Shown piece by piece: positions 6,265-45,485 of a stretch of 53,700 bases of DNA; within the stretch, counting starts at the first letter, position 1; every line of letters begins with the position of its first letter. Below the pieces are notes generated by a model. The model had not been told where the DNA came from. It made no database searches and was given only the letters and a program-made list of their open reading frames with translations. The position numbers and the translations under genes are program-made. Origin of the DNA: a virus; the IMG/VR virus record IMGVR_UViG_3300013136_000004, positions 1 through 53,700 of that record; one strand, written 5' to 3'.

Positions 6265-7479
6265 ATGGCTATCGTGTCTAATGATGAAATGCTTACTTAT
6301 CTTGGAATTTCAAATCCGTATTTTATCATAACATCTGTCAATGACGCATTAGTGTTCAGAGTATCTGTGACAAACACTCCCATCGACATTCCTGATGGAA
6401 CATATGGTGCGACCGAATTGTGTGCGGCTGTAAAATCATGCCTCGATACGGCTTTCACTCCTCTAACATTCACAGTTTCATACGACTCAGATACTTGTAA
6501 ATTTACTATAACTCCTTCTGCTGGAACTCTTGCCTATATCAACACAGGCTCTGATGGAGGATATACTCTCGGATTTACTCAGGACCATACAGCTGCCACC
6601 TCTCTTACAAGTGACATAGAGGCAGGAGCGCAGAATTCTGTTCTTCTTTCTATTAGAGATGCAGCAGAGGAATATGTGCAGAATGTATATTGCAGGAGAA
6701 ACTTCGAACTCACAAGTTACAAAGAAAGATATGACGGGAAAGGAACCAGAACTCTTACTCTGAAGAATGCTCCTGTCGTCTCCCTCACGAAGCTCTCTAT
6801 AGGAACAGTTGATGTTGTAAAAGTTTGCAATACTTCTTCTTATACCTCCTCCACTGTTTCTGTTTCATCTACAGGTCTCAATCTCATGAAAGATGATGTT
6901 GTCGATTCTTCTATTGTCTTTCTAACTTATGACACAATAGGAAAAGTTGTAAATGCAATTAACGCACTCGGAAACTCATGGAGTGCATCATCTCTCTGTA
7001 GCATCTATGATAATTATAAGTCGACAGAGCTCATTGACATGATGGGAGCAAATTGCATTGATAGTAACTGGGTATATCTCCAGGTCCCAGACAAGCCCGA
7101 GGATACATTTGATGTCTATGCAGAAAGAGGGCAAATAGTTCTACCGGGACGGAGTGATTCTCTCTTGAGAGATGCTCGCGCAATGGCTGTAAACTATGAA
7201 GATAACCCTCATTGGGATTCATATTGTAATTTAGTGTTCCCGACAGGGAATAGAAATATCTTTGTGAATTACACTGCCGGATACACATCTGCCAATATGC
7301 CCGCTGACTTGAAGCTTGCAATAAAAATAATAACGAAGACGCTCTACGGGGCAACAATGCAGGATACATTCGGAGTGAGGAATTACTCAGTTGACAGAAT
7401 TTCGATGACTCTGGATGATTCTGAGATTCCAATGGAAGCAAAAACAATTCTCAATAGATACAGGAAGACATTGATATGA
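6265..7479 (+). CDS. head-tail connector (gp6-like adaptor) with inserted beta domain
   Basis: The N-terminal SNDEMLTYLGI and the segments around 128-150 (RDAAEEYVQNVYCRRNFE) and the C-terminus (MPADLKLAIKIITKTLYG, then LNRYRK) match the helical DNA-packaging adaptor family that docks under the portal. At 404 residues it is about twice the usual length because residues about 20-125 hold an inserted beta-rich domain (IPDGTYGATELCAAV, then FTVSYDSDTCKFTIT, then LGF) of a type often seen in virus structural proteins. A second insertion lies around 180-240. It overlaps the next head-closure gene by four bases. Confidence 0.6.
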   Translation: MAIVSNDEMLTYLGISNPYFIITSVNDALVFRVSVTNTPIDIPDGTYGATELCAAVKSCLDTAFTPLTFTVSYDSDTCKFTITPSAGTLAYINTGSDGGYTLGFTQDHTAATSLTSDIEAGAQNSVLLSIRDAAEEYVQNVYCRRNFELTSYKERYDGKGTRTLTLKNAPVVSLTKLSIGTVDVVKVCNTSSYTSSTVSVSSTGLNLMKDDVVDSSIVFLTYDTIGKVVNAINALGNSWSASSLCSIYDNYKSTELIDMMGANCIDSNWVYLQVPDKPEDTFDVYAERGQIVLPGRSDSLLRDARAMAVNYEDNPHWDSYCNLVFPTGNRNIFVNYTAGYTSANMPADLKLAIKIITKTLYGATMQDTFGVRNYSVDRISMTLDDSEIPMEAKTILNRYRKTLI

Positions 7480-19748: not shown

Positions 19749-20135
19749 ATGATTTCTATTACGCGGAAATTCGAGTTTCATTCTGCCCACTATCTTCCAA
19801 ATTACGATGGAAAATGTTCCCGCCAGCATGGTCACACCTATATTCTCGAAGTTGAAGTTGCAGGAAAGATAAAAGCCCAAGGTCCAAAAACAGGAATGAT
19901 AATGGACTTCGGTGAGTTGAAAATATCGGTCGATAAGGTTGTTATAGAAAAATTAGACCATGAGCTCCTCAACGATGTATGGGAAAATCCAACAGCAGAG
20001 GTTATGGTTGAAGATATCGCAATAATGCTTCTTCCTTTCCTTCCTGGTCTTGTAAGAGTGAGATTATACGAAACAACTAACAGCTATGCCGAATGGAGAA
20101 AAGATGAAAGTTTTGAGCGTATTTCGAAGCATTAA
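19749..20135 (+). CDS. queD: QueD, 6-carboxy-5,6,7,8-tetrahydropterin synthase
   Basis: Converts 7,8-dihydroneopterin triphosphate to 6-carboxytetrahydropterin in the preQ0 pathway. The zinc ligands and catalytic Cys are clear: FHSAH (His14), KCSRQHGHTY (Cys23, His27, His29), plus KLDHELLND with the catalytic His and the terminal RLYET Glu. The length (128 aa) is normal. AAGGAG precedes the ATG and a promoter sits at 19700. The gene overlaps queE by 32 bases. Confidence 0.92.
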   Translation: MISITRKFEFHSAHYLPNYDGKCSRQHGHTYILEVEVAGKIKAQGPKTGMIMDFGELKISVDKVVIEKLDHELLNDVWENPTAEVMVEDIAIMLLPFLPGLVRVRLYETTNSYAEWRKDESFERISKH

Positions 20136-20781
20136 TGGAGAAGTAAATCGAAGCCTCCAGGGCTCGATGGCGACATTTGTCAGGTTTGCAGGATGTCCTT
20201 TCAGATGTTCATACTGTGATACAAGGAGGGCGCAAAAGAAAGATTCTGGAAGAATTATGACCGTCGATGAAATCGTCAATTCTATTATTGCTGAAGGATG
20301 CGAAAATGTCACTCTTACCGGAGGGGACCCTCTCTATCAATCTCAAGATGATTTAAAGTACCTTCTTAGGGAGCTGACAGAGAAGAGATGCTTTAAAGTT
20401 TCAATTGAGACGAATGGATTTTTCTCTGTCGAGCCCTATGAGGAATTCAGATTCGATGTTTCATTCGTAATGGATTATAAGCTGAAAGGCTCAGGGATGG
20501 ATGGGCATATGAAGGACGAGAATTTCGTTCCTTTATGGAAAAATGATTTTATTAAATTTGTCATTACAAGCATTGCGGATTATTCTCAAGCAAAGGAGGT
20601 GATGAGGCGGCTTAGACTTCAAGGATGCGAAGCGAAGTTTGCATTTAGTCCTTGCCATGGAGGGAAATTTGATGCTGCGAAATTGATAGAAGAGATGAAG
20701 AATGACAGAATCACAGACTGTATAGTTAATCTTCAAATCCATAAGTATATATGGCCGGAAGCCGGCGAGAAAGAGGTCTAA
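20104..20781 (+). CDS. queE: QueE, 7-carboxy-7-deazaguanine synthase (radical SAM)
   Basis: Radical-SAM enzyme for the ring contraction that makes 7-carboxy-7-deazaguanine. The cluster motif is CPFRCSYC (Cys31, Cys35, Cys38), with GG at LTGGDP for SAM binding and IETNG typical of QueE. The N-terminus (SINGEV) carries the substrate-binding region. GGAGAAAAG precedes ATG 20104 inside the end of queD. The length of 225 aa is typical. Confidence 0.92.
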   Translation: MKVLSVFRSINGEVNRSLQGSMATFVRFAGCPFRCSYCDTRRAQKKDSGRIMTVDEIVNSIIAEGCENVTLTGGDPLYQSQDDLKYLLRELTEKRCFKVSIETNGFFSVEPYEEFRFDVSFVMDYKLKGSGMDGHMKDENFVPLWKNDFIKFVITSIADYSQAKEVMRRLRLQGCEAKFAFSPCHGGKFDAAKLIEEMKNDRITDCIVNLQIHKYIWPEAGEKEV

Positions 20782-20782
20782 G

Positions 20783-21229
20783 ATGTCAGTGATTGTAGAT
20801 GTGAAGATAAATGGTGGAACATATTACTTGGGAGAATCTCCTGAGGAAATTTTCAAAGCACTTATTTCGATTTTTGATTTTACTGGAAAATATCAATTCT
20901 CTCCTCTCGAAACATTAAAGGGCAATTTTATTGAAATTTGTGAAATGGCAAAAGAGAATTTCATTGAACTAAAGAAAAGCCCACTTGTCACAAATCCGGA
21001 ACTCACAAAAGAATATCGAAAATGGCAGATGAAGATGGATAGGTTCATTGCGAGATTTCAATCGATTCAGAGTGTAGAGGAGTTTCATCAAAAGTTTTTC
21101 GATATGCTTCTCTCATTTGAAAACCTTTCTCCTCTTCACGGATTTGGTGCTAAAAATAAGTGGGGAGATAAGCTCTATGGAGACCCGGAGAGAAAACTTC
21201 TTTCAAAAATGGGAGGAAAAATTGAATGA
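20783..21229 (+). CDS. unknown protein in the deazaguanine operon
   Basis: A 148-residue, mostly helical protein with no recognised motif, placed between queE and queC and overlapping queC by four bases. The start is one base after the queE stop, so it is very likely co-translated. Conserved-looking features are a short beta hairpin at the N-terminus (VDVKINGGTYYLG) and a GFGAKNKWGDKLYGD segment near the C-terminus. Position suggests a role linked to modified-base synthesis or use, but nothing in the sequence shows it. Confidence 0.55.
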   Translation: MSVIVDVKINGGTYYLGESPEEIFKALISIFDFTGKYQFSPLETLKGNFIEICEMAKENFIELKKSPLVTNPELTKEYRKWQMKMDRFIARFQSIQSVEEFHQKFFDMLLSFENLSPLHGFGAKNKWGDKLYGDPERKLLSKMGGKIE

Positions 21230-21915
21230 GAAATTTAGATGAAAAAAGAGCAATTGTTTTATTGTCGGGCGGGCAGGATTCTGCAACCTGTCTCTCTATT
21301 GCGATGAAGACATTCATCGAGGTCCATACTGTAAGCTTCTACTACGGACAGAGGCATAAGCTGGAGCTTGAGAAGGCGAAGAAATTGAGCGAAATAGCAG
21401 GAGCGAAATCTCACGCAGTTGTCGATATTGCGGGACTCTTCTCTCAGGTGACAGAATCTTCATTGATGGATTCAAATTCGGATATTTCTGAGAAATGCAA
21501 ATTTGATGATTCTGTCCCTGCATCATTTGTTCCGTTTCGAAATCTTTTCTTCATTTCATCTGCTGCCGCCATTGCGTATAGAAAAGGGATAGCGAATCTC
21601 ATGACAGGGGTATGTTCCACTGATTTCTCAGGATATTTTGACTGCAGAGACGTCTTTATCAAGGCAGCGAATGTGGCGATTTCTCTTGCTGGAGATTGCA
21701 ATCTTGATATCCACACTCCTCTCATGTGGCTCACAAAGGCAGAGACTGTCCTTCTTATGGCGAGACTGGAAACATTCGAATGGTATGAGCACACTCTTAC
21801 CTGCTATGAAGGAAAAGAGCCTCCATGTGGCGTCTGTCCTGCCTGTAAGTTGAGAGCAAAGGGATTCGAGGAGGCTGGACTCATGGACCCGTTAATTCTA
21901 AAATTCGAGGAGTAA
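21226..21915 (+). CDS. queC: QueC, 7-cyano-7-deazaguanine (preQ0) synthase
   Basis: ATP-dependent conversion of 7-carboxy-7-deazaguanine to preQ0. The PP-loop is LSGGQDSATC (residues 13-22). The FVPFRN motif and the C-terminal zinc cluster (CYEGKEPPCGVCPACKLR) are typical. The length of 229 aa is standard. Starts in an ATGA overlap with the preceding unknown gene and ends one base before the next ATG. Confidence 0.93.
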   Translation: MRNLDEKRAIVLLSGGQDSATCLSIAMKTFIEVHTVSFYYGQRHKLELEKAKKLSEIAGAKSHAVVDIAGLFSQVTESSLMDSNSDISEKCKFDDSVPASFVPFRNLFFISSAAAIAYRKGIANLMTGVCSTDFSGYFDCRDVFIKAANVAISLAGDCNLDIHTPLMWLTKAETVLLMARLETFEWYEHTLTCYEGKEPPCGVCPACKLRAKGFEEAGLMDPLILKFEE

Positions 21916-21916
21916 G

Positions 21917-22849
21917 ATGAGGAAAAAACATTATTATACATGGGACGAATTCAATGATGATTGTGTTGAGCTCTCGAGAGTGATTTCGAATTCTGGGGTT
22001 CGAGGAAAAGTTTCTGGAATTTATGGAGTCCCTAATGGCGGAAATCTTCTTGCTGACAGGCTGAGTAGATTGCTCTCACTTGAAAAGGTCCACAGAGCTT
22101 TCGCTGATTCTCCGGGAGTTCTTGTTGTTGACGATATAATTGATTCCGGAGAAACAAGAAGGAGATTTCCTTACAATCATTTTGTCTCTATTCACATAAG
22201 ACCCGAAGTCGAAAATTCCTTTGAAAAAACCCTTTGTCTTCGAGTAGAGGATAGATGGGTGTGTTATCCGTGGGAGAAAGAAGAGGAGAATAAAGGAGAA
22301 GATATCGTCAGGAGGATGCTCGAATTCATCGGAGAAAATCTGAATCGTCCAGGGCTGAGAGAAACTCCGGAGAGAGTTGTCAAGATGTGGGAAGAGGTGT
22401 TCGAGGGATATGATAAGAATAAATTTCCGAAGATAACGACAATTAACAACGGAGAAGACGGAATACTCTACCACGACATGATAATTGATAGTGGGTATTT
22501 TTTCTCACACTGCGAGCATCATGTCGTTCCCTTCTTTGGAAAATTCAGCTTCGGGTACATCCCCGACAAGGTCTTGATTGGGGCAAGTAAGATATCGAGA
22601 GTGATTGATTTCTATTCTCACAAACTCCAGATAGCCGAAAGGCTCGTTCATGAAATAGTAGATTGCATGCAAGAAACACTTTCTCCGAAAGGATTGATAT
22701 TGATAATGAGCGGAAGGCATCTCTGCAAGGAAATGAGAGGAGTGAAAAAATTCGATTCTCCTTTCGAGGTGATAGCTGTAAGGGGATGCTTTTCAACAAA
22801 TAAAGACGGATGCAAAGATGAATTCATGTCAAGAATTCAAAGGAGATAA
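21917..22849 (+). CDS. folE: phosphoribosyltransferase-GTP cyclohydrolase I (FolE) fusion
   Basis: Residues 1-115 form a type I phosphoribosyltransferase domain with the PRPP loop VLVVDDIIDSGET at 68-80. Residues 125-305 are GTP cyclohydrolase I: GLRETPERVVKMW, the zinc site SHCEHH (Cys199, His202) with Cys270 in GRHLCKEM, and SKISRVIDFYSHKLQIAERL. FolE makes dihydroneopterin triphosphate, the QueD substrate. The transferase could salvage a purine base to the nucleotide that becomes GTP; that link is inference. A single reading frame with no break supports a real fusion. Confidence 0.88.
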   Translation: MRKKHYYTWDEFNDDCVELSRVISNSGVRGKVSGIYGVPNGGNLLADRLSRLLSLEKVHRAFADSPGVLVVDDIIDSGETRRRFPYNHFVSIHIRPEVENSFEKTLCLRVEDRWVCYPWEKEEENKGEDIVRRMLEFIGENLNRPGLRETPERVVKMWEEVFEGYDKNKFPKITTINNGEDGILYHDMIIDSGYFFSHCEHHVVPFFGKFSFGYIPDKVLIGASKISRVIDFYSHKLQIAERLVHEIVDCMQETLSPKGLILIMSGRHLCKEMRGVKKFDSPFEVIAVRGCFSTNKDGCKDEFMSRIQRR

Positions 22850-22852
22850 GTT

Positions 22853-23296
22853 ATGGGAAGACTTTTCGGGAGAATTGTGATGACCGATTTAGCAGCAAAG
22901 ACATTTATCTTGATGTCGGTGGTTAGACCTCCTTTTCGATTTCCATCTCATTGGTTCAAGATATCTCTTGCGAGAGTTATGAATCCTGAAATGACAGATG
23001 ATGAGATAAAAAAAGAGTTTTTTGATAAAGGAAATGCGAAATTCGGCGACACGCTGAGGACGTTTTCAGACCCGAGAATTGGAGCATTCCGGGAAATTTC
23101 TAAAGGAAAATATATTTATGAAAATATTGTAACTCGAGGAATGCTTAGAAAATTCAAGGAAATCTACAAAGAGAAAAAGGATATAGGAAGATTTTTAAAA
23201 TCAAAGGAGAAAATGAATGAAAAAAGACAAGACAAATCATCTCAAAAGTCTCGGCGCAAAGAAAACAATCTACAAGCTCGGCGGGCCGAATACTAA
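22853..23296 (+). CDS. unknown basic protein in the deazaguanine operon
   Basis: 147 residues, strongly basic towards the end (KSSQKSRRKENNLQARRAEY), with an N-terminal hydrophobic part around 10-35. It starts three bases after the folE fusion and its end overlaps queF by 80 bases in another frame. No family recognised. The Lys/Arg-rich tail suggests nucleic-acid contact. The overlap with queF is unusually long for this genome, so the true end or the queF start could differ. Confidence 0.5.
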   Translation: MGRLFGRIVMTDLAAKTFILMSVVRPPFRFPSHWFKISLARVMNPEMTDDEIKKEFFDKGNAKFGDTLRTFSDPRIGAFREISKGKYIYENIVTRGMLRKFKEIYKEKKDIGRFLKSKEKMNEKRQDKSSQKSRRKENNLQARRAEY

Positions 23297-24665
23297 AATT
23301 CTCGAGACATTCGAGAATAAGTTTCAGTTGAGGGAATATCGAATTCTCTTCCGGACAAATGAATTTTCTTCTCTTTGCGTTTCCGGAGATACTTTGATGG
23401 ATATTTCTCGCAACGAAGAAAAATATCCTGATGGAATCCCTATAAAAGATTTGGTGGGGACTGAGGGTATTATTTTCGGATTTGATTTAGAGACAAGAGA
23501 ACCAGTTGCGAGAAAATATCACTCTGTAAGAAAAACAAGAGAAGATGCTTCTGTCGTGAAAATCAATCTTGAGCACTTGCACTGCAGCGGAAAAGAAGGA
23601 GACGACCATATAACTCGAATCCCGAAAGAGATTGTAGTGACTCCAGACCATCCGGTTCTAATATCGACGGGGTGGGGAAAGACTTCTTGGATATTGGCTT
23701 CGGAGCTGGAGCCGGGGATGAGGTTAGTAGCTGACCAGAAATCTTTCGATTGTATTCGAGGAAAGGCTCGTCACAGACTCATAATGGAATGCTTTCTCGG
23801 GAGATATCTCGAGGATGAGCTGATTCACCACAAAGACCATTGCCATTTTAATAATGAAATTGAAAATCTTGAAATAAAAAATCAGTCTTCTCATTTCAGT
23901 CATCACCAATCAATGAAATATGGATATTCTTCGTCTCTTCCTTCGGTAGAAGAGCTCATCGAAATGTACAATTCCGGAGAAAATTTTAATTCATTAGCTA
24001 AAAAATTCAAGTGCGATTTTTCAACAATTGAATCGAGAATTGGACATCTGGTTGACAAAAGAACTCAGAAAGAATCTCTTTTGGCCAAGCCTGAGAGCAT
24101 TATTCATAGAAAATTGATGAAAGAGTGCTCTCAATATTATCAGAGAGGATATACTATTCTTGAGCTCTCTGAGTTCTACGGAGTTGATGGAACGACAATC
24201 TCTCAATGGATTATTAAATCAGGAGGAAAAGTTCGAACTTCTCTCGAAACAAAAGATTTTCGAAAAAGAGTTTCCGAGCTACCTTCTCTTAATCATCGAG
24301 TTGTTTCCGTTGAGCCTCATGGAAGGCAAGATGTATACAATCTCGAGGTCGAGGACATAGAAAACTTTTTTGGAAATGGAGTAGTGCTTCATAATTGCCC
24401 AAAAACCGGCCAACCGGATTTCGCCTCCATCGAGATAGAATATATCCCGAGAAAGAAGTGCATCGAATCAAAATCTCTCAAACTCTATCTCTTTTCCTAT
24501 AGAGGCCACGGCTCATTCATGGAGACGATAACCAATAAAATCCTCGAAGACCTGGTTGATACTTGTGACCCTCTCTGGATGAAGGTTGTAGGAAGCTTCA
24601 ATGCTCGTGGGGGAATTACAACTGACGTCGTCGCAGAATATCACTCAAAGGAGTATCGGCCGTGA
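23217..24665 (+). CDS. queF: QueF, preQ0 reductase, interrupted by an intein
   Basis: Exteins: residues 1-53 and 394-482 together make a 142-residue unimodular QueF, the NADPH-dependent reductase of preQ0 to preQ1. The joined active site would read EFSSL-CPKTGQPDF, whose Cys is the thioimide-forming nucleophile; the ESKSLKLYLFSYR and HGSF segments (substrate and NADPH contacts) are in the C-extein. The intein starts at Cys54, so the enzyme is inactive until splicing. AAAGGAG lies seven bases before ATG 23217. Having QueF predicts a preQ1-type base in DNA rather than preQ0. Confidence 0.9.
   Translation: MKKDKTNHLKSLGAKKTIYKLGGPNTKILETFENKFQLREYRILFRTNEFSSLCVSGDTLMDISRNEEKYPDGIPIKDLVGTEGIIFGFDLETREPVARKYHSVRKTREDASVVKINLEHLHCSGKEGDDHITRIPKEIVVTPDHPVLISTGWGKTSWILASELEPGMRLVADQKSFDCIRGKARHRLIMECFLGRYLEDELIHHKDHCHFNNEIENLEIKNQSSHFSHHQSMKYGYSSSLPSVEELIEMYNSGENFNSLAKKFKCDFSTIESRIGHLVDKRTQKESLLAKPESIIHRKLMKECSQYYQRGYTILELSEFYGVDGTTISQWIIKSGGKVRTSLETKDFRKRVSELPSLNHRVVSVEPHGRQDVYNLEVEDIENFFGNGVVLHNCPKTGQPDFASIEIEYIPRKKCIESKSLKLYLFSYRGHGSFMETITNKILEDLVDTCDPLWMKVVGSFNARGGITTDVVAEYHSKEYRP
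23376..24395 (+). mobile_element. intein with HNH homing endonuclease domain in queF
   Basis: 340 residues beginning CVSGDTLMD (block A), with VVTPDHPVLIS (block B, TxxH) and ending YNLEVEDIENFFGNGVVLHN before the +1 Cys (blocks F and G). Between them, ELIHHKDHCHFNNEIENLEI and the following SHFSHHQSM match an HNH-type endonuclease core. A helix-turn-helix-like stretch (FNSLAKKFKCDFSTIESRI; ILELSEFYGVDGTTISQWI) may recognise DNA. All splicing residues are present, so autosplicing is expected and homing to intein-less queF alleles is plausible. Confidence 0.9.
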
Positions 24666-26657: not shown

Positions 26658-29600
26658 ATGAATAACGAAAATTACGTCCATCTTCACGTTCATAATGAAT
26701 ACTCATATCTTGACGGTCTCGGCTCGGCCAAGCAATGGGCAAAGAAGGCAAAAGGGATGGGATTCAAATCTCTTGCCTTAACGAATCACGGAAATGTAGC
26801 AGGAGTGATAAAGTGGCAAGAGGCTTGTCTTGAGGAAGGGATTTCTCCGATAATTGGATGTGAGATGTATATAGTTGAGAATATCAAGAAGAAAGAAAAA
26901 AATGAGGAGAGAAAGCACATAACGATTCTTGTCAAGAACGAATCAGGCTGGAAAAATCTCCTCACTATGCTCACGATAGCAAACACTGAAGGATTCTACT
27001 ATAAGCCGAGAATAGACCCTCAAATTCTTTGTGAGGATTTAGAGGGAATTGTTATTATGACTGCGTGCCATAACGGATTTATCTCTACAGAATGGGGTGC
27101 CTCTCTTCTCGGAAAGCTCGGAAGACTTTTACCGAAAGATTGTCTTGCGTTTGAGGTGATGCCTTTAAAGGCAAGATTTCAGGAGAGATATAATTCTCTT
27201 GTTTTATCAATGAGAGAATCGTTGAGGGATGTAAGAGATATTCCTGTTGTTCTCACAAATGATTGCCACTATGTCAATTCAGATGATGCGACTGCTCAGG
27301 AAACAATGCTCTCTATTCAATCGAATGCGAAATGGACAGACAAAGATAGATGGAAATTCGATACGGATGAATTGTTTCTAAAGAGTGCAAATCAGATGAA
27401 AATAGCTTGCTCGAGGACTCTCAATCTTCAGGGAGATGAATTTATAGAGAACTCTCTAAGGATAGCAGAGCAGTGCAATTCATTTAGAATAAAAAGTCTT
27501 TCTGTTAATCTTCCTGACCCGAAATCGAAAAATGGAGCTCTCACAGAAGAAGACTTTTTGAGAATAGTCGATGAAGGATATCTCGAAAAAATATGGCAGA
27601 AGGTTCCAGATGAAAAGCCTTACATGAAGAGACTCCGAGAGGAAATCGACCTTCTCAAGAAAAAAGGATTCATAAAATATTTTCTAATTGTTTGGGAAAT
27701 TGTAAATTGGTGTAAAGAAAATAATATCATGATTGGTCCAGGAAGAGGGTCTGTTGGAGGAAGCATTGTTGCATATCTGATGGGGATAACGATGGTAGAC
27801 CCTCTCAGATACAATCTTCTTTTCTGGAGATTTACAAGTCCTGACAGGAATGACTTGCCAGATATCGATATTGATTTTGAAGATTCAAAAAGGCACCTTG
27901 TATTTGAGCACATAAGAGAGCTATATGGAAAATATAATGTCGCATCCGTTAGTACTTTCATGTATCTGAAAGGAAGGTCTGTAATAAGAGATGTCGGACG
28001 AGTATTTGACTTGCCTTCAAAGGATGTAGATGAATTTGCAAAATCTCTTGAATATACAAAAGTTGACACGGACATCTTAAAATCATCATTTGATGAGACA
28101 TCTGAAGGAAGAGATTTTGCAAAAAAATATCCTCTCCAGTCTGATATAGCAATGAGGCTTGAAGGAAACATACGAGGAACGGGCACTCATGCTGCTGCTT
28201 GTGTTATTTCAGAGGATGATTTAAGAGAAGGAAAGAGAGGAAATCTTATCTACTGCAAAGGAGGAGAACTTGCTGTCTGCTGGGAAAAAGACGATGCAGA
28301 GAAAATGGGATTGATGAAGATGGATATTCTTGGACTCAATGCTCTCTCTGTATTTTCGGAAGCGAACAGGCTCATTGCACTGAATGGAAAGCCTGAGATA
28401 ATCTTCCACAAAATTCCTCTCGATGACAAGAAAATCCTCAAAAGGTTCGCTCAAGGCGATACTTCTGGTTGCTTTCAATTCAACTCTCATGGAATTACAA
28501 AGCTCTGTAAAGACATGAGAGTATCAAGCTTCGAGGACCTCGTTGCGATAAATGCTCTCTATCGACCTGGAACACTGAGGAGTGGAATGGTCGATAAATT
28601 TGTTATGAGAAGGAGAGGGAAAGAAAAGTGGGAGCCTATACATTCTATTGTTGAGAAAATAACAAAAGATACCCACGGAATCATCGTCTATCAAGAGCAG
28701 CTCATGCTTGCGCTCTACGAGCTCGCAGGGCTTTCATGGACGACAATAGAGAAGATAAGAAAGGTTGTCGGAAAATCGAAAGGATTGGAGGCATTCAATA
28801 GATTCAAAGAAGAATTTGTCAAAGGATGCGAAGAAAAAGGGACTTTGTCGAGGAAACAGGCAGAAGATTTTTTCGACGAAATGAATAATTTCGGCGCGTA
28901 TGGATTTAATCGTAGCCACGCCGTTGAATACACGATGATTGGGTACTGGTGCATGTATTTTAAGCACTACTTTCCAAATGAATTCTATTCTGCTTCTCTC
29001 TCATACGGAAGCGAAGGGAAGAAGGAAGAGATAGTGGAGGAAGTATATGCATCGGGATTGAAAATAAAACTTCCGAAAGTAGGAATCAGCCATTCAAAGC
29101 TCTGGATTGTGAAAGGGGATGAAATTTACTGTCCATTTATCGAAGTTAAAGGGCTTGGTGAAAAACAGAGTGAAAGAATCTTTCGAGGAGATATAGGAGA
29201 AAAAATAAGAACTGTAGAGAGGAAGAAAAAAGAGGAACCGCAAGGTCCGAAGATAAAAGGATTTTTCTCTCAGAAAAAAGAAGAGCCTGTGAAGAAAAAA
29301 GAAGTAAAGGTGATGGAGGGTGGAAACTCTCTCAACTCTCTTCTTCAGAAAATGCATTCCTTTGAGCCAGATTATGAACCTTCGTTTGATGAATTGATGG
29401 AATTGAGCGGATTATTTTCTTTCTCTCTCTTGAAAGAAGACCTGAGAAAGAAAGAATTGAAGCTTAGAAAGATAAGCTATCGAGACGAATCTGTAAGCAA
29501 GTGTAATGATTGTCCTTTAAGAGAATTCGCAAGAGCACCTGTTCTTCCATCTCTCGGAAGATATAATATTGCAATCATCGGAGAATCTCCAGGAAGGGAT

Positions 29601-30053
29601 GAAGACAGAGAAGGAATTGGATTCATTGGAGACTCCGGTGGGCTTCTATGGGAAGAATGCTACAAGCATGGAATAAAAAGAGAATATTGTCATGTGACAA
29701 ATGTCTATAAATGCTTTCCAGGTTCCTCGAAAGAAAAATATGATTTAACGAAGACGAAAATGTGCTGGAAGCATTTAGATAAAGAGCTTAAAGAGCTGAA
29801 TCCTGGAGTCGCTCTCGGGATAGGAAATTCATGCGTTCATTTCTTCGAAAATAAGACATCCGGAATATACGATTTGAGCGGAACTGCAAAGTGGAGCTTT
29901 AAGTATGGCTGCTGGATTTGCTATTGTATTCATCCTGCCTCTCTTTTATATGGGCAGGAAAAAGATAAGAAAGAGAAATGGAGAGAAGGGATAAAAACAT
30001 TTGCACAGAAAGTTTCAGTTCTTATGATGAGAAAGGAGGAGGGGCTGATATGA
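26658..30053 (+). CDS. DNA polymerase III alpha fused to a family 4-like uracil-DNA glycosylase
   Basis: PHP domain at the N-terminus (VHLHVHNEYSYLDGLGS, residues 7-23). The polymerase core follows: GPGRGSVGGSIVAYLMGIT, the catalytic PDIDIDFEDSKR near 401, DTSGCFQF and the helix-hairpin-helix-like VKGLGEKQSERI near 833-844. A charged linker (840-940) leads into a C-terminal domain with CNDCPL (Cys949, Cys952), IGESPGRDEDREGIGFIGDSGGLLW, TNVYKCFP and CIHPASLL, the motifs of Fe-S family 4/5 uracil-DNA glycosylases. The OB and tau-binding domains of DnaE are absent. One uninterrupted frame. Confidence 0.88.
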   Translation: MNNENYVHLHVHNEYSYLDGLGSAKQWAKKAKGMGFKSLALTNHGNVAGVIKWQEACLEEGISPIIGCEMYIVENIKKKEKNEERKHITILVKNESGWKNLLTMLTIANTEGFYYKPRIDPQILCEDLEGIVIMTACHNGFISTEWGASLLGKLGRLLPKDCLAFEVMPLKARFQERYNSLVLSMRESLRDVRDIPVVLTNDCHYVNSDDATAQETMLSIQSNAKWTDKDRWKFDTDELFLKSANQMKIACSRTLNLQGDEFIENSLRIAEQCNSFRIKSLSVNLPDPKSKNGALTEEDFLRIVDEGYLEKIWQKVPDEKPYMKRLREEIDLLKKKGFIKYFLIVWEIVNWCKENNIMIGPGRGSVGGSIVAYLMGITMVDPLRYNLLFWRFTSPDRNDLPDIDIDFEDSKRHLVFEHIRELYGKYNVASVSTFMYLKGRSVIRDVGRVFDLPSKDVDEFAKSLEYTKVDTDILKSSFDETSEGRDFAKKYPLQSDIAMRLEGNIRGTGTHAAACVISEDDLREGKRGNLIYCKGGELAVCWEKDDAEKMGLMKMDILGLNALSVFSEANRLIALNGKPEIIFHKIPLDDKKILKRFAQGDTSGCFQFNSHGITKLCKDMRVSSFEDLVAINALYRPGTLRSGMVDKFVMRRRGKEKWEPIHSIVEKITKDTHGIIVYQEQLMLALYELAGLSWTTIEKIRKVVGKSKGLEAFNRFKEEFVKGCEEKGTLSRKQAEDFFDEMNNFGAYGFNRSHAVEYTMIGYWCMYFKHYFPNEFYSASLSYGSEGKKEEIVEEVYASGLKIKLPKVGISHSKLWIVKGDEIYCPFIEVKGLGEKQSERIFRGDIGEKIRTVERKKKEEPQGPKIKGFFSQKKEEPVKKKEVKVMEGGNSLNSLLQKMHSFEPDYEPSFDELMELSGLFSFSLLKEDLRKKELKLRKISYRDESVSKCNDCPLREFARAPVLPSLGRYNIAIIGESPGRDEDREGIGFIGDSGGLLWEECYKHGIKREYCHVTNVYKCFPGSSKEKYDLTKTKMCWKHLDKELKELNPGVALGIGNSCVHFFENKTSGIYDLSGTAKWSFKYGCWICYCIHPASLLYGQEKDKKEKWREGIKTFAQKVSVLMMRKEEGLI

Positions 30054-42059: not shown

Positions 42060-42158
42060 ATTTATGGCCCACGGAAAATAAAACATTAACCACTAATTGT
42101 TTATGTTCATGGTCAATGACTCTTATTTTGTACAACCGTGGGCCATAAATTTGTTTTT
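42060..42158 (+). ncRNA. long-stem structured RNA or terminator
   Basis: A 15-bp perfect stem (42060-42074 with 42136-42150) encloses 61 bases that can pair further (AAAATAA 42075-42081 with TTATTTT 42123-42129). TTTGTTTTTTT follows, so it can terminate. The next promoter begins inside that U tract. Confidence 0.55.
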
Positions 42159-42187
42159 TTCTCAATTTCGGAAAAGTAATATATAAT
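42159..42187 (+). promoter_or_regulatory. TTCTCA-17-TATAAT promoter before the UxxC gene
   Basis: TTCTCAATTTC begins at 42159 and TATAAT is at 42182-42187. It is the only promoter candidate for the thioredoxin-like gene at 42216 and the accessory genes behind it. Confidence 0.7.
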
Positions 42188-42215
42188 ATTTACATACACA
42201 ACAAAGGAGAATATA

Positions 42216-42503
42216 ATGATAAAGCTTTTCGTCAAGTATAAAGGGCATATAAAGTGAATTGCATGCGAAGAAGCAGTTCAGCTTCTTCCATTTATTAAAG
42301 AAGAAGATAGGCGTATATACCCTGTCGATTCATCAGATTTAGATGAAGCAAGAGAAGTCCTTACTGAAATGGCTTGGTATCAGTTAGTAGATAAAGGAAA
42401 AGATGGTGTAGTTCCTATTCTTGTAATAGATAAAAATGACAATAATTTTACGGCTGAAAAATACTTCGGACAAGATGTTATTGATAAATTGAAAAATCTA
42501 TGA
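42216..42503 (+). CDS. thioredoxin-fold selenoprotein candidate (in-frame TGA, U-x-x-C)
   Basis: AAAGGAG precedes ATG 42216. Codon 14 is TGA (42255-42257). Reading through it gives a 95-residue thioredoxin/glutaredoxin-like protein: strand IKLFVKYK, active-site loop GHIK-TGA-IAC, helix EEAVQLLPFI, strand RRIYPVDSS, helix, VVPILVID (cis-Pro strand) and helix. The TGA takes the place of the first redox Cys, giving U-x-x-C. A hairpin of bacterial SECIS type starts ten bases later. The frame ends in an ATGA overlap with the next gene, which supports the full-length product. A nonsense mutation is the alternative. Confidence 0.65.
42267..42288 (+). promoter_or_regulatory. SECIS-like hairpin after the in-frame TGA
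   Basis: An 8-bp perfect stem (GAAGAAGC 42267-42274 with GCTTCTTC 42281-42288) has a six-base loop AGTTCA with G at its second position. The loop G is 18 bases after the TGA. Bacterial SECIS elements have a G among the first two loop bases and lie about 16-37 bases after the codon. Confidence 0.6.
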
Positions 42504-42928
42504 TTTTAAAACAAAAATTTATAAAGTCTCCTGCTGATGAAGAACAAAAAAAGATAGAAGTTCAAACAGCTATAGAAGAAGGAAAAACTATTAAAGAAAT
42601 ATCTTCTATATATGGGGTTAATCAAAATACAATTTCATACTTTATAAGAAAACATAATTTAATACCTCCAAGGGTATCAAGAATGTCATTAAGACGTGCC
42701 TTAGATATAGAAAAAAATGAAAGAAAATTACATTCTATACCTTCAATAAAAGAATATGATAATGAACCAACAGAACTTTTAACAAAACAAGTTCTATTAG
42801 ATTTTACTAAAGACCGTGAATTATATGATTTAATTGTTACTGTGGCTGAAAAGCAACGTCGTTCCATAGAGGAGCAAATAAAACATATTATTGAATTTTA
42901 TATATTGAAAATGGAGGATAATAGATAA
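42500..42928 (+). CDS. HTH plus ribbon-helix-helix-like regulator, paralogue of 1663-2025
   Basis: ATGA overlap with the thioredoxin-like gene. Residues 15-55 give an HTH (EEGKTIKEISSIYGVNQNTISYFIRKHNL), and the C-terminus (DRELYDLIVTVAEKQRRSIEEQIKHIIEFYIL) aligns residue by residue with the end of the 1663 product. An Arg/Lys-rich linker joins the parts. A DNA-binding regulator of the accessory region is lik likely. No own ribosome binding site is visible, so it depends on translation of the gene before it, including readthrough of the TGA. Confidence 0.6.
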   Translation: MILKQKFIKSPADEEQKKIEVQTAIEEGKTIKEISSIYGVNQNTISYFIRKHNLIPPRVSRMSLRRALDIEKNERKLHSIPSIKEYDNEPTELLTKQVLLDFTKDRELYDLIVTVAEKQRRSIEEQIKHIIEFYILKMEDNR

Positions 42929-43625: not shown

Positions 43626-43648
43626 GGATGGTGGGAGAAGGAGTTAAA

Positions 43649-43990
43649 ATGACCGAACTTAAACCAGAATTTAAGAAGTGGCTCACCGAAGAAATACTGG
43701 GTGAGTGCTTGCATAAGTTTAAGTTGCCTAATAAGCTTGGGGGAAACTACTGTATAAAGTGCAGTAAGTTTATTCCATACATTATTAACCGTTCCTTCAC
43801 CACATGGCAAGACTATGGGGATGTGGTGAATGCATTACAGATTTCATCATTACAGATTTCATCAAAGTATAATTTTGAGGAAATACTGTCGTGGATGATG
43901 AATAAACAACTTCATTATTTAAGTGAAATGTTAATGGTAAGTTCTTTCTTTCTTGCGTTGCAAGAGTGGTGGGAACAGGAGGGGAAATAA
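43649..43990 (+). CDS. paralogue A of a four-member tandem family
   Basis: 113 residues. Starts MTELKPEFKKWLTEEILGEC, has a Cys pair (CIKC) in the middle, then RSFTTWQDYGDVVNAL and ends LQEWWEQEGK. The same start, WxDYGDV and LQEWW blocks occur in the products at 44304, 44791 and 45126. A small zinc finger with helices is likely. The QISSLQISS stretch is an internal 12-base duplication. GGAGAAGGAG precedes the ATG. Confidence 0.55.
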   Translation: MTELKPEFKKWLTEEILGECLHKFKLPNKLGGNYCIKCSKFIPYIINRSFTTWQDYGDVVNALQISSLQISSKYNFEEILSWMMNKQLHYLSEMLMVSSFFLALQEWWEQEGK

Positions 43991-44089
43991 GTGTGGAACT
44001 TTTATAAACTAATATTAGTTATGATATTGGGGACAATAGCTTTGATTCCTATTGTTTGCTTGATTTTAATAGCGTTATCTTTTTTATGA
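43991..44089 (+). CDS. one-helix membrane mini-protein (32 aa)
   Basis: GTG start directly after the previous stop, with GAGGGG upstream. The product is a single hydrophobic helix (LILVMILGTIALIPIVCLILIALSF). Support is the position and ribosome binding site only. Confidence 0.4.
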   Translation: MWNFYKLILVMILGTIALIPIVCLILIALSFL

Positions 44090-44100
44090 AGGAGGAGAAA

Positions 44101-44307
44101 ATGATAACACAAAAAGAAAAAGAATTAATGGAAAAGTACACACAGGTTTGCCATGTAGGAAACAATAAATATATCGGTGTTTTTTATAGTGACCATGAAA
44201 ATTTTAATATTGTTCTGTGCAAAGAAACGGATAAAAAAACAGCACAATCATTCTGTGAGAAATTCTCTGTTTCGTTGTACCGTGTTTTAAAAAGTGAGGG
44301 GAAATGA
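44101..44307 (+). CDS. small hypothetical protein (68 aa)
   Basis: AAGGAGGAG precedes ATG 44101. Mixed alpha/beta, with two Cys (QVCHVGNNKYIG, LCKETDKKTAQSFCEKF). The stop overlaps the next start. Unknown family. Confidence 0.5.
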   Translation: MITQKEKELMEKYTQVCHVGNNKYIGVFYSDHENFNIVLCKETDKKTAQSFCEKFSVSLYRVLKSEGK

Positions 44308-44609
44308 CCGAACTTAAACCAGAATTTAAGAAGTGGCTCACCAAAGAAATACTGGGTGAATGCTGGCACACAGTTACAGGAATATGTTGGAAATGTAAAA
44401 AATATATCGGTTTACCTTATAGTCGTTCTTTCACAACATGGCAAGACTATGGGGATGTGGTTACTGCCCTTCAATTATCATCTAAGTATAATTTTGAGGA
44501 GATACTGTCTTGGATGATGAATAACTATTTTCGTTATTTAAGTGAAACGCCCAATGTGAATAACTTTTTTAGCGCACTTCAAGAGTGGTTGGAGAAGGAG
44601 GGAAAATGA
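44304..44609 (+). CDS. paralogue B of the tandem family
   Basis: 101 residues; starts MTELKPEFKKWLTKEILGECWH, has CWKCKKY, SRSFTTWQDYGDVVTAL, FEEILSWMMN and LQEWLEKEGK. Closest to paralogue A in the C-terminal half. ATGA overlap with the gene before and after. Confidence 0.55.
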   Translation: MTELKPEFKKWLTKEILGECWHTVTGICWKCKKYIGLPYSRSFTTWQDYGDVVTALQLSSKYNFEEILSWMMNNYFRYLSETPNVNNFFSALQEWLEKEGK

Positions 44610-44794
44610 CTGAACTATCTAAAAAGGTCAAAGATAAAATGCTCAGGTCAAGATTATCGACATGGGTAATAACGGGGAATGACCTGTGCTATATGGAAGA
44701 TAAGCCTGTCCCTGAATGGGCGAAGAGCCTTAAAACTCGTATTATGGAAGCACTTATTATTTATGGGGACAAGATAAGGAAGGAGTGGAAATGA
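44606..44794 (+). CDS. small hypothetical protein (62 aa)
   Basis: Sits between paralogues B and C, with GGAGAAGGAGG upstream. Starts MTELSKKVKDKMLRSRLSTW and ends DKIRKEWK; apart from the first four residues it is not related to the paralogues. Helical and basic. Confidence 0.5.
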   Translation: MTELSKKVKDKMLRSRLSTWVITGNDLCYMEDKPVPEWAKSLKTRIMEALIIYGDKIRKEWK

Positions 44795-45129
44795 GCGAAA
44801 TTAAACCAGAATTTAAGAAGTGGCTCACCGAAAAAGTGCTTGGTGAGTGTTGTCATGAGATAGAATGGGATGGAGAACCGGGATATATATGTGTAAAATG
44901 CAGAAAACATTCTATGAATGGAGTACTAACAAACCGCACCTTCGATAACTGGAAGGACTATGGGGATGTGATTGAAGGATTTAAAATGGCAGAAAAAAAT
45001 AAAGTCTTGTTTAAAAAGTTTTTAATGTGGCAACGTGATTTTCATGAAATGTCTATGTTAGATGTATTTACTGACAAAGACCTATTTTTCACCACGCTTC
45101 AAGAATGGTGGGAGAAGGAGTGGAAATGA
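44791..45129 (+). CDS. paralogue C of the tandem family
   Basis: 112 residues; starts MSEIKPEFKKWLTEKVLGECCHE, has CVKCRK, NRTFDNWKDYGDVIEGF and ends DKDLFFTTLQEWWEKEWK. The first 20 and last 20 residues are nearly identical to paralogue D; the centres differ, as if shuffled. Confidence 0.55.
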   Translation: MSEIKPEFKKWLTEKVLGECCHEIEWDGEPGYICVKCRKHSMNGVLTNRTFDNWKDYGDVIEGFKMAEKNKVLFKKFLMWQRDFHEMSMLDVFTDKDLFFTTLQEWWEKEWK

Positions 45130-45485
45130 GCGAAATTAAACCAGAATTTAAGAAGTGGCTCACCGAAAAAGTGCTTGGTGAGTGTTGTCATGAAAAGAAA
45201 AAAGGGGGAAGATATTACTGTTCATGTAACTATGGAACAAACGAACTGCAAGACCTAACCAGACATATAGAAACTTGTAACCGCACCTTCGATAACTGGA
45301 AGGACTATGGGGATGTGGTGACTGCTATGAAAGAGAAAACACATCTTCCTTGGGAAACTTTCTTTATCTGGTTATTAGATAATAAAAATTTAGTAGATAC
45401 CAAATTAGAAGCTATGAATTTTATAACAGACAAAGACCTATTCTTCACCACGCTTCAAGAATGGTGGGAGAAGGAGTGGAAATGA
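45126..45485 (+). CDS. paralogue D of the tandem family
   Basis: 119 residues; same ends as paralogue C, with a different central Cys/His part (YYCSCNYGTNELQDLTRHIETC) that looks like a C2HC-type zinc finger. NRTFDNWKDYGDVVTAM is conserved. ATGA overlap on both sides. The DNA of the shared ends is also nearly identical, so duplication is recent or under gene conversion. Confidence 0.55.
   Translation: MSEIKPEFKKWLTEKVLGECCHEKKKGGRYYCSCNYGTNELQDLTRHIETCNRTFDNWKDYGDVVTAMKEKTHLPWETFFIWLLDNKNLVDTKLEAMNFITDKDLFFTTLQEWWEKEWK

Follow-up and report, generated by a model that had tools for sequence, protein, structure and literature searches.

The window analysed (the whole 53.7-kb stretch of a virus record) carried genes for DNA polymerase III alpha, terminase, and primase/helicase as well as a 7-deazaguanine gene set, and it contained a plus-strand ORF in which TGA occupied codon 14 (Table 1). 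This ORF began at the ATG at 42216, with a good Shine-Dalgarno sequence ahead of it, and displayed 81 sense codons between the codon-14 TGA and a terminator TGA (42501–42503, codon 96) sharing bases with the start codon (ATG, 42500) of the following ORF; the in-frame TGA, the 81 further codons, and the ATGA overlap, all described in an earlier note on this DNA, were each confirmed in the sequence. When codons were scored by log-odds with the phage's own genes as training set, codons 15–95 gave +34.7 bits in the proposed frame, while the other two frames of the post-TGA stretch scored −43 and −68 bits; true phage genes of equal length gave a median of 24 bits and a 95th percentile of 32. The 81 codons after the TGA look no less like a gene than the true genes of the phage do, and this holds only in the proposed frame. 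A scan for TGA read-through genes gave one further plus-strand candidate (15596), which looked like an artefact of an upstream start picked for a primase-like ORF, plus weak minus-strand candidates.

Table 1. Positions of the features at the studied locus and of the related gene pair in phage L271
Feature	Position	Strand	Description and basis
Promoter-like site	42159..42187	+	TTCTCA-17-TATAAT; consensus match only, 10/12
Shine-Dalgarno-like site	42203..42209	+	AAAGGAG, 5′ of ATG; sequence
Proposed seleno-glutaredoxin gene	42216..42503	+	95 residues, Sec at codon 14, UIAC active site, own stop TGA; frame, coding score, homologues with TGA or Cys
In-frame TGA, proposed Sec codon	42255..42257	+	Codon 14; sequence, same base in second contig, TGA at aligned codon in L181/L260 and L271
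SECIS-like hairpin	42267..42288	+	8 bp, loop AGUUCA, G at loop position 2, 17 nt UGA-to-loop; folding, all constraints of published bSECIS model met
Pro67	42414..42416	+	Aligned with glutaredoxin cis-Pro; invariant in seven-sequence alignment
Next gene	42500..42928	+	Helix-turn-helix protein, ATGA overlap; probably co-translated
Glutaredoxin and peroxiredoxin genes of L271	L271:6822-7591		Adjacent, overlapping; in-frame TGA at 6876 and 7211, each at catalytic Cys

A second IMG/VR assembly from another sample (3300013137_000043) represented the same virus, with 99.998% identity over 40 kb, and carried a TGA identical to that at codon 14, so a sequencing error at this codon is unlikely; contig 3300013123_000733 matched the window at 46.6–53.5 kb and did not reach the gene. 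TGA terminated 18 of the 51 large plus-strand ORFs of the phage, which bears out the earlier claim that in the rest of the window it acts as a normal stop, and TGG and Cys codons had normal usage; genome-wide recoding was therefore ruled out.

Several other features of the window were recorded. Just upstream of the glutaredoxin-like gene, at 42060–42150, two perfectly complementary 15-nt arms (ATTTATGGCCCACGG / CCGTGGGCCATAAAT) separated by 61 nt preceded a T-rich tract; this inverted repeat folded at −33 kcal/mol (z=−5.6), matched no Rfam family, and might represent a terminator or small RNA. The 7-deazaguanine set (19749–24665) was composed of a QueD-like gene, a radical SAM (QueE-like) gene, QueC, GTP cyclohydrolase I, and a gene of the QueF type split by an intein bearing an HNH domain, and it suggests modified guanine in the phage DNA. 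The DNA polymerase III alpha (26658–30053) had a uracil-DNA glycosylase domain fused C-terminally, and the region 43647–45191 contained the same short stretches repeated several times in diverged form (75–93% identity), suggesting small tandem paralogues.

Hairpin downstream of the in-frame TGA

The hairpin had the sequence GAAGAAGC-AGTTCA-GCTTCTTC, and its loop G lay 18 nt past the TGA. The published bSECIS model (PMC13188914, Fig. 2) specifies an apical loop of 3–9 nt, a stem of 4–16 bp, a G within loop positions 1–2 (usually then G or U), a UGA-to-loop distance of 16–37 nt, and an MFE of −7.5 kcal/mol or lower. The hairpin of the window met the conditions for (i) loop and stem size, with its 6-nt loop and 8-bp stem, (ii) G position, with its loop AGUUCA, (iii) spacing, with 17 nt from UGA to loop, and (iv) energy, with −10.3 kcal/mol alone and −13.1 for the 46-nt region. 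The earlier description of an 8-bp stem with loop AGTTCA and G as second loop base, 18 bases from the codon, was thus accurate, and no published constraint was violated. A hairpin as good followed 0.4% of all TGAs in the window, and comparison with synonymous recodings of the peptide gave p=0.043 (folding z=−3.5; the hairpin score used tolerated one mismatch per stem). Taken alone, the hairpin is only moderately unusual and constitutes weak evidence, and it also obtained a terminator-like score.

Phage homologues with TGA or Cys at the active site

Direct homology searches with the window protein gave only the twin virus, so relatives were collected via the polymerase: the resulting set comprised about 80 phage contigs related by polymerase, and DNA from many of them was translated into six-frame ORFs with TGA as a residue. 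The first set (1.6 Mb, 17,107 ORFs) was searched by phmmer without filters, and its best match was found in phage G057 (3300033145_000788): MTILMFVRPKGSL-U-LACEDARQLGW..., with TGA also at codon 14. The G057 homologue had 105 residues, overlapped the upstream ORF by ATGA, and sat between helicase-like and replication-like ORFs; the match had E=0.098 with U read as Cys, and the alignment of the two proteins reached Z=6.0 against shuffles with the U position masked. The polymerases of these two phages were only about 45% identical. The homologue was found only by the local phmmer search without filters, the earlier genome scans of the relatives having had no positive control and being too insensitive to count as absence, and enlargement of the set to 3.3 Mb gave no further family member.

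A degenerate DNA pattern for U-x-A-C-E-[ED]-A, applied to all of IMG/VR, gave 26 stretches, which once translated showed a redox-like frame only in the twin of the window, in G057, and in a third phage, L271 (3300020055_000642), which carried the phage-type genes phrog_14168 nuclease and phrog_624. L271 encoded an 81-residue protein that clearly belonged to the glutaredoxins (PF00462, E=5e-9), the TGA again standing in place of the same Cys. This gene overlapped a second one whose product was a peroxiredoxin (Redoxin, E=2e-17; phrog_2281 "peroxyredoxin antioxidant", E=7e-46) and in which TGA replaced the codon of the peroxidatic Cys (TPIU, codon 50). The peroxiredoxin conformed to TxxU, a motif listed for Sec-peroxiredoxins (PMC13188914), though it belongs to another phage and not to the window; its closest phage relatives were cyanophage peroxiredoxins, and the cyanophage protein aligned with it (phrog_2281, 42% identity) had Cys at this position. 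The L271 pair represents two candidate selenoproteins in one phage, the peroxiredoxin being, by inference, the natural partner of the glutaredoxin, and chance or decay can hardly account for two different neighbouring redox enzymes that each carry UGA exactly at the catalytic Cys. A stricter motif ending in Q-L, again applied to all of IMG/VR, was found with TGA in three phages and with TGC/TGT in none. From this small number it is inferred that in the Sec forms the UGA and the sequence after it are apparently under a joint constraint; such a constraint would be expected if the stretch also forms the SECIS. Other matches were rejected: that in L203 (INLFYSSKGSMKUSQC) was a chance one with another frame open there, the weak Cys-type match in L034/L019 had the motif without glutaredoxin sequence behind it, and none of the three Sec-motif matches in genome contigs lay in a glutaredoxin-like frame.

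At the column aligned with the UGA, Cys was present in the glutaredoxins of Roseobacter phage CRP-5, Caulobacter phage Cr30, Vibrio phage 11895-B1, and T4 (NrdC), and the earlier placement of the TGA at the first position of a C-x-x-C site agrees with these. The seven-sequence alignment had C/U14, C17, two Leu, and the cis-Pro as invariant residues, so that the pattern of glutaredoxin/thioredoxin-fold oxidoreductases, a C/UxxC with a helix after it and a distal cis-Pro, was fulfilled (C14, C17, P67). The Sec/Cys pair test was likewise met by the phage glutaredoxins with Cys at the UGA column, with the link made via the L271 homologue, and the homologue alignment that had been proposed as a check came out in favor of Sec: among the homologues found, the codon was TGA (two other phages) or Cys, and no other residue was encountered. 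The protein had been called thioredoxin-like, which was correct and could be refined, since it aligns with phage glutaredoxins. The L271 protein was clearly related to NrdC (Z=8.8), while the window protein gave Z=3.6 with L271 and only Z=1.5 with NrdC; this direct link to NrdC is not significant, and the glutaredoxin assignment of the window gene therefore depends on a similarity chain. The window protein had no match in Pfam, NCBIfam, or named PHROG families (a match to phrog_2670, E=0.008, was set aside, this family having no known function), and the PF00462 profile matched neither it nor the G057 protein. AlphaFold models reached pLDDT of just 48 and 44, and the result of the fold search on such a low-confidence model carries no meaning.

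The hairpins following the TGAs of the other phage genes were variable: (i) that of the L271 peroxiredoxin (7 bp, loop AGGU, 18 nt, −7.6 to −9.8) met the full bSECIS model; (ii) that of the L271 glutaredoxin had 5 bp, loop AGUU, and just −4.4 to −5.9 for the hairpin alone; and (iii) that of G057 had a 3+3 bp stem with one mismatch, loop AGUUA, and −7.1 to −8.5, with a stronger competing fold pairing the UGA itself. The latter two fell short of some bSECIS constraints. Against synonymous recoding, p was 0.13 for G057, 0.065 for the L271 glutaredoxin, and 0.002 for the L271 peroxiredoxin, and the four phage-gene hairpins, that of the window included, jointly gave p=5e-4.

Proposed selenocysteine reading, alternatives, and implications

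In the absence of protein data, the gene is with high likelihood a phage-borne seleno-glutaredoxin whose TGA is read as Sec; the homologues with TGA or Cys and the bSECIS constraints support the interpretation of codon 14 given in the earlier note. The nucleophilic active-site Cys of a phage glutaredoxin-type thiol oxidoreductase would have been replaced by selenocysteine: host SelB with Sec-tRNA-Sec would bind the stem-loop, the loop of which lies 17 nt past the UGA, Sec would be inserted at codon 14, and the codon-96 UGA would terminate translation normally. No tRNA was found in the window, and a search of five phage records, which may be incomplete, detected no selA, selB, or tRNA-Sec (selD was outside this search); the phage-record part of the sel-gene check suggested earlier was hereby run. 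Decoding must therefore come from the host, which is unidentified and whose competence, like Sec insertion itself, is inferred. The recognition of a SECIS by SelB can be specific to a lineage.

The U-I-A-C protein is predicted to serve as a fast thiol/selenol electron donor in infection. Two Cys relatives directly adjoined ribonucleotide reductase genes, and in T4 it is the reductase encoded by the phage that NrdC serves. As a search of the window detected no large chain of this enzyme, the protein would act on the reductase of the host or on a different thiol enzyme. The assignment of host ribonucleotide reductase as electron acceptor is an inference that is possible without being favored, and another thiol enzyme may take this role instead.

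Four alternatives to Sec insertion were considered. The first is a pseudogene, namely a Cys-form glutaredoxin recently inactivated by a change of TGC/TGT to TGA, for which a single mutation would be enough; the two gene-bearing contigs are the same virus and hence offer no divergence from which selection could be judged. Such an origin is improbable given TGA at the exact same catalytic position in two other phages (one with a second such enzyme), frames that are all open beyond the TGA, the SECIS-like hairpin after it, and a motif whose Cys form was never found. Marginally less credible is read-through of the UGA as an ordinary amino acid (Trp, Cys, or Arg), leaky or due to a host suppressor and without selenium: UGA is the leakiest stop codon and the host is unidentified, but the phage has no tRNA and uses UGA as an ordinary stop elsewhere in its genome, and in three phages the UGA is confined to the catalytic Cys position of redox enzymes and accompanied by SECIS-like hairpins. 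A regulatory stop, by which a 13-residue leader matters or the UGA couples downstream translation to selenium supply, would suit the early position of the UGA, the terminator-like score of the hairpin, and a gene that opens a transcription unit with a promoter-like site; conservation of the 81 downstream codons as a redox protein, repeated downstream of codon 50 in L271, makes it highly unlikely. A sequencing or assembly error at the TGA can practically be discounted, since, although the window and its twin are both metagenome assemblies, the base was identical in these two IMG/VR contigs and the same codon recurred in two other phages.

Selenoprotein surveys have so far centred on cellular genomes, and standard gene callers truncate UGA-containing genes at the UGA. 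The proposed seleno-glutaredoxin resembles the bacterial one (PF00462, UxxC; PMC13188914) in belonging to a small thioredoxin-fold family, with Sec first in CxxC and the SECIS in the coding region; it differs in being phage-encoded with no Sec machinery seen in the phage and in being too diverged for the Pfam profile, which its L271 relative does match. With T4 NrdC and other phage glutaredoxins it shares a phage origin, the aligned active site, and the cis-Pro, and it differs in having UGA where these have Cys. Basilisk-like Bacillus phages also link phages to Sec decoding (PMC6145125), through a tRNA-Sec gene described as the first such gene in bacteriophages, whereas the present phage has a selenoprotein gene without that tRNA. 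Selenoproteins are known from eukaryotic viruses, and the GPX4-like one of Fowlpox virus (PMC8310308) is likewise a virus-borne Sec redox enzyme with the SECIS in the coding sequence; it comes from a eukaryotic virus, has a eukaryotic SECIS, and is of unrelated origin. In the literature searched, which left out most subscription papers, no report of a phage-encoded selenoprotein was found, and a 2026 review of the prokaryotic selenoproteome contained neither the word phage nor the word virus; priority is not claimed.

As a broader proposition, considered reasonably likely, a seleno-redox module consisting of seleno-glutaredoxin and sometimes seleno-peroxiredoxin, with in-gene SECIS and a Sec-tied motif, recurs in phages of Sec-decoding bacteria, and the infection programme of these phages partly depends on host selenium and SelB. 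If true, the selenoproteins of this module would be the first to be recognised in bacterial viruses, and phages would carry selenoprotein genes together with SECIS elements; phage host range would be tied to Sec decoding, which may aid host prediction for uncultured phages, and phages would be a possible route for the spread of Sec and Cys enzyme forms.
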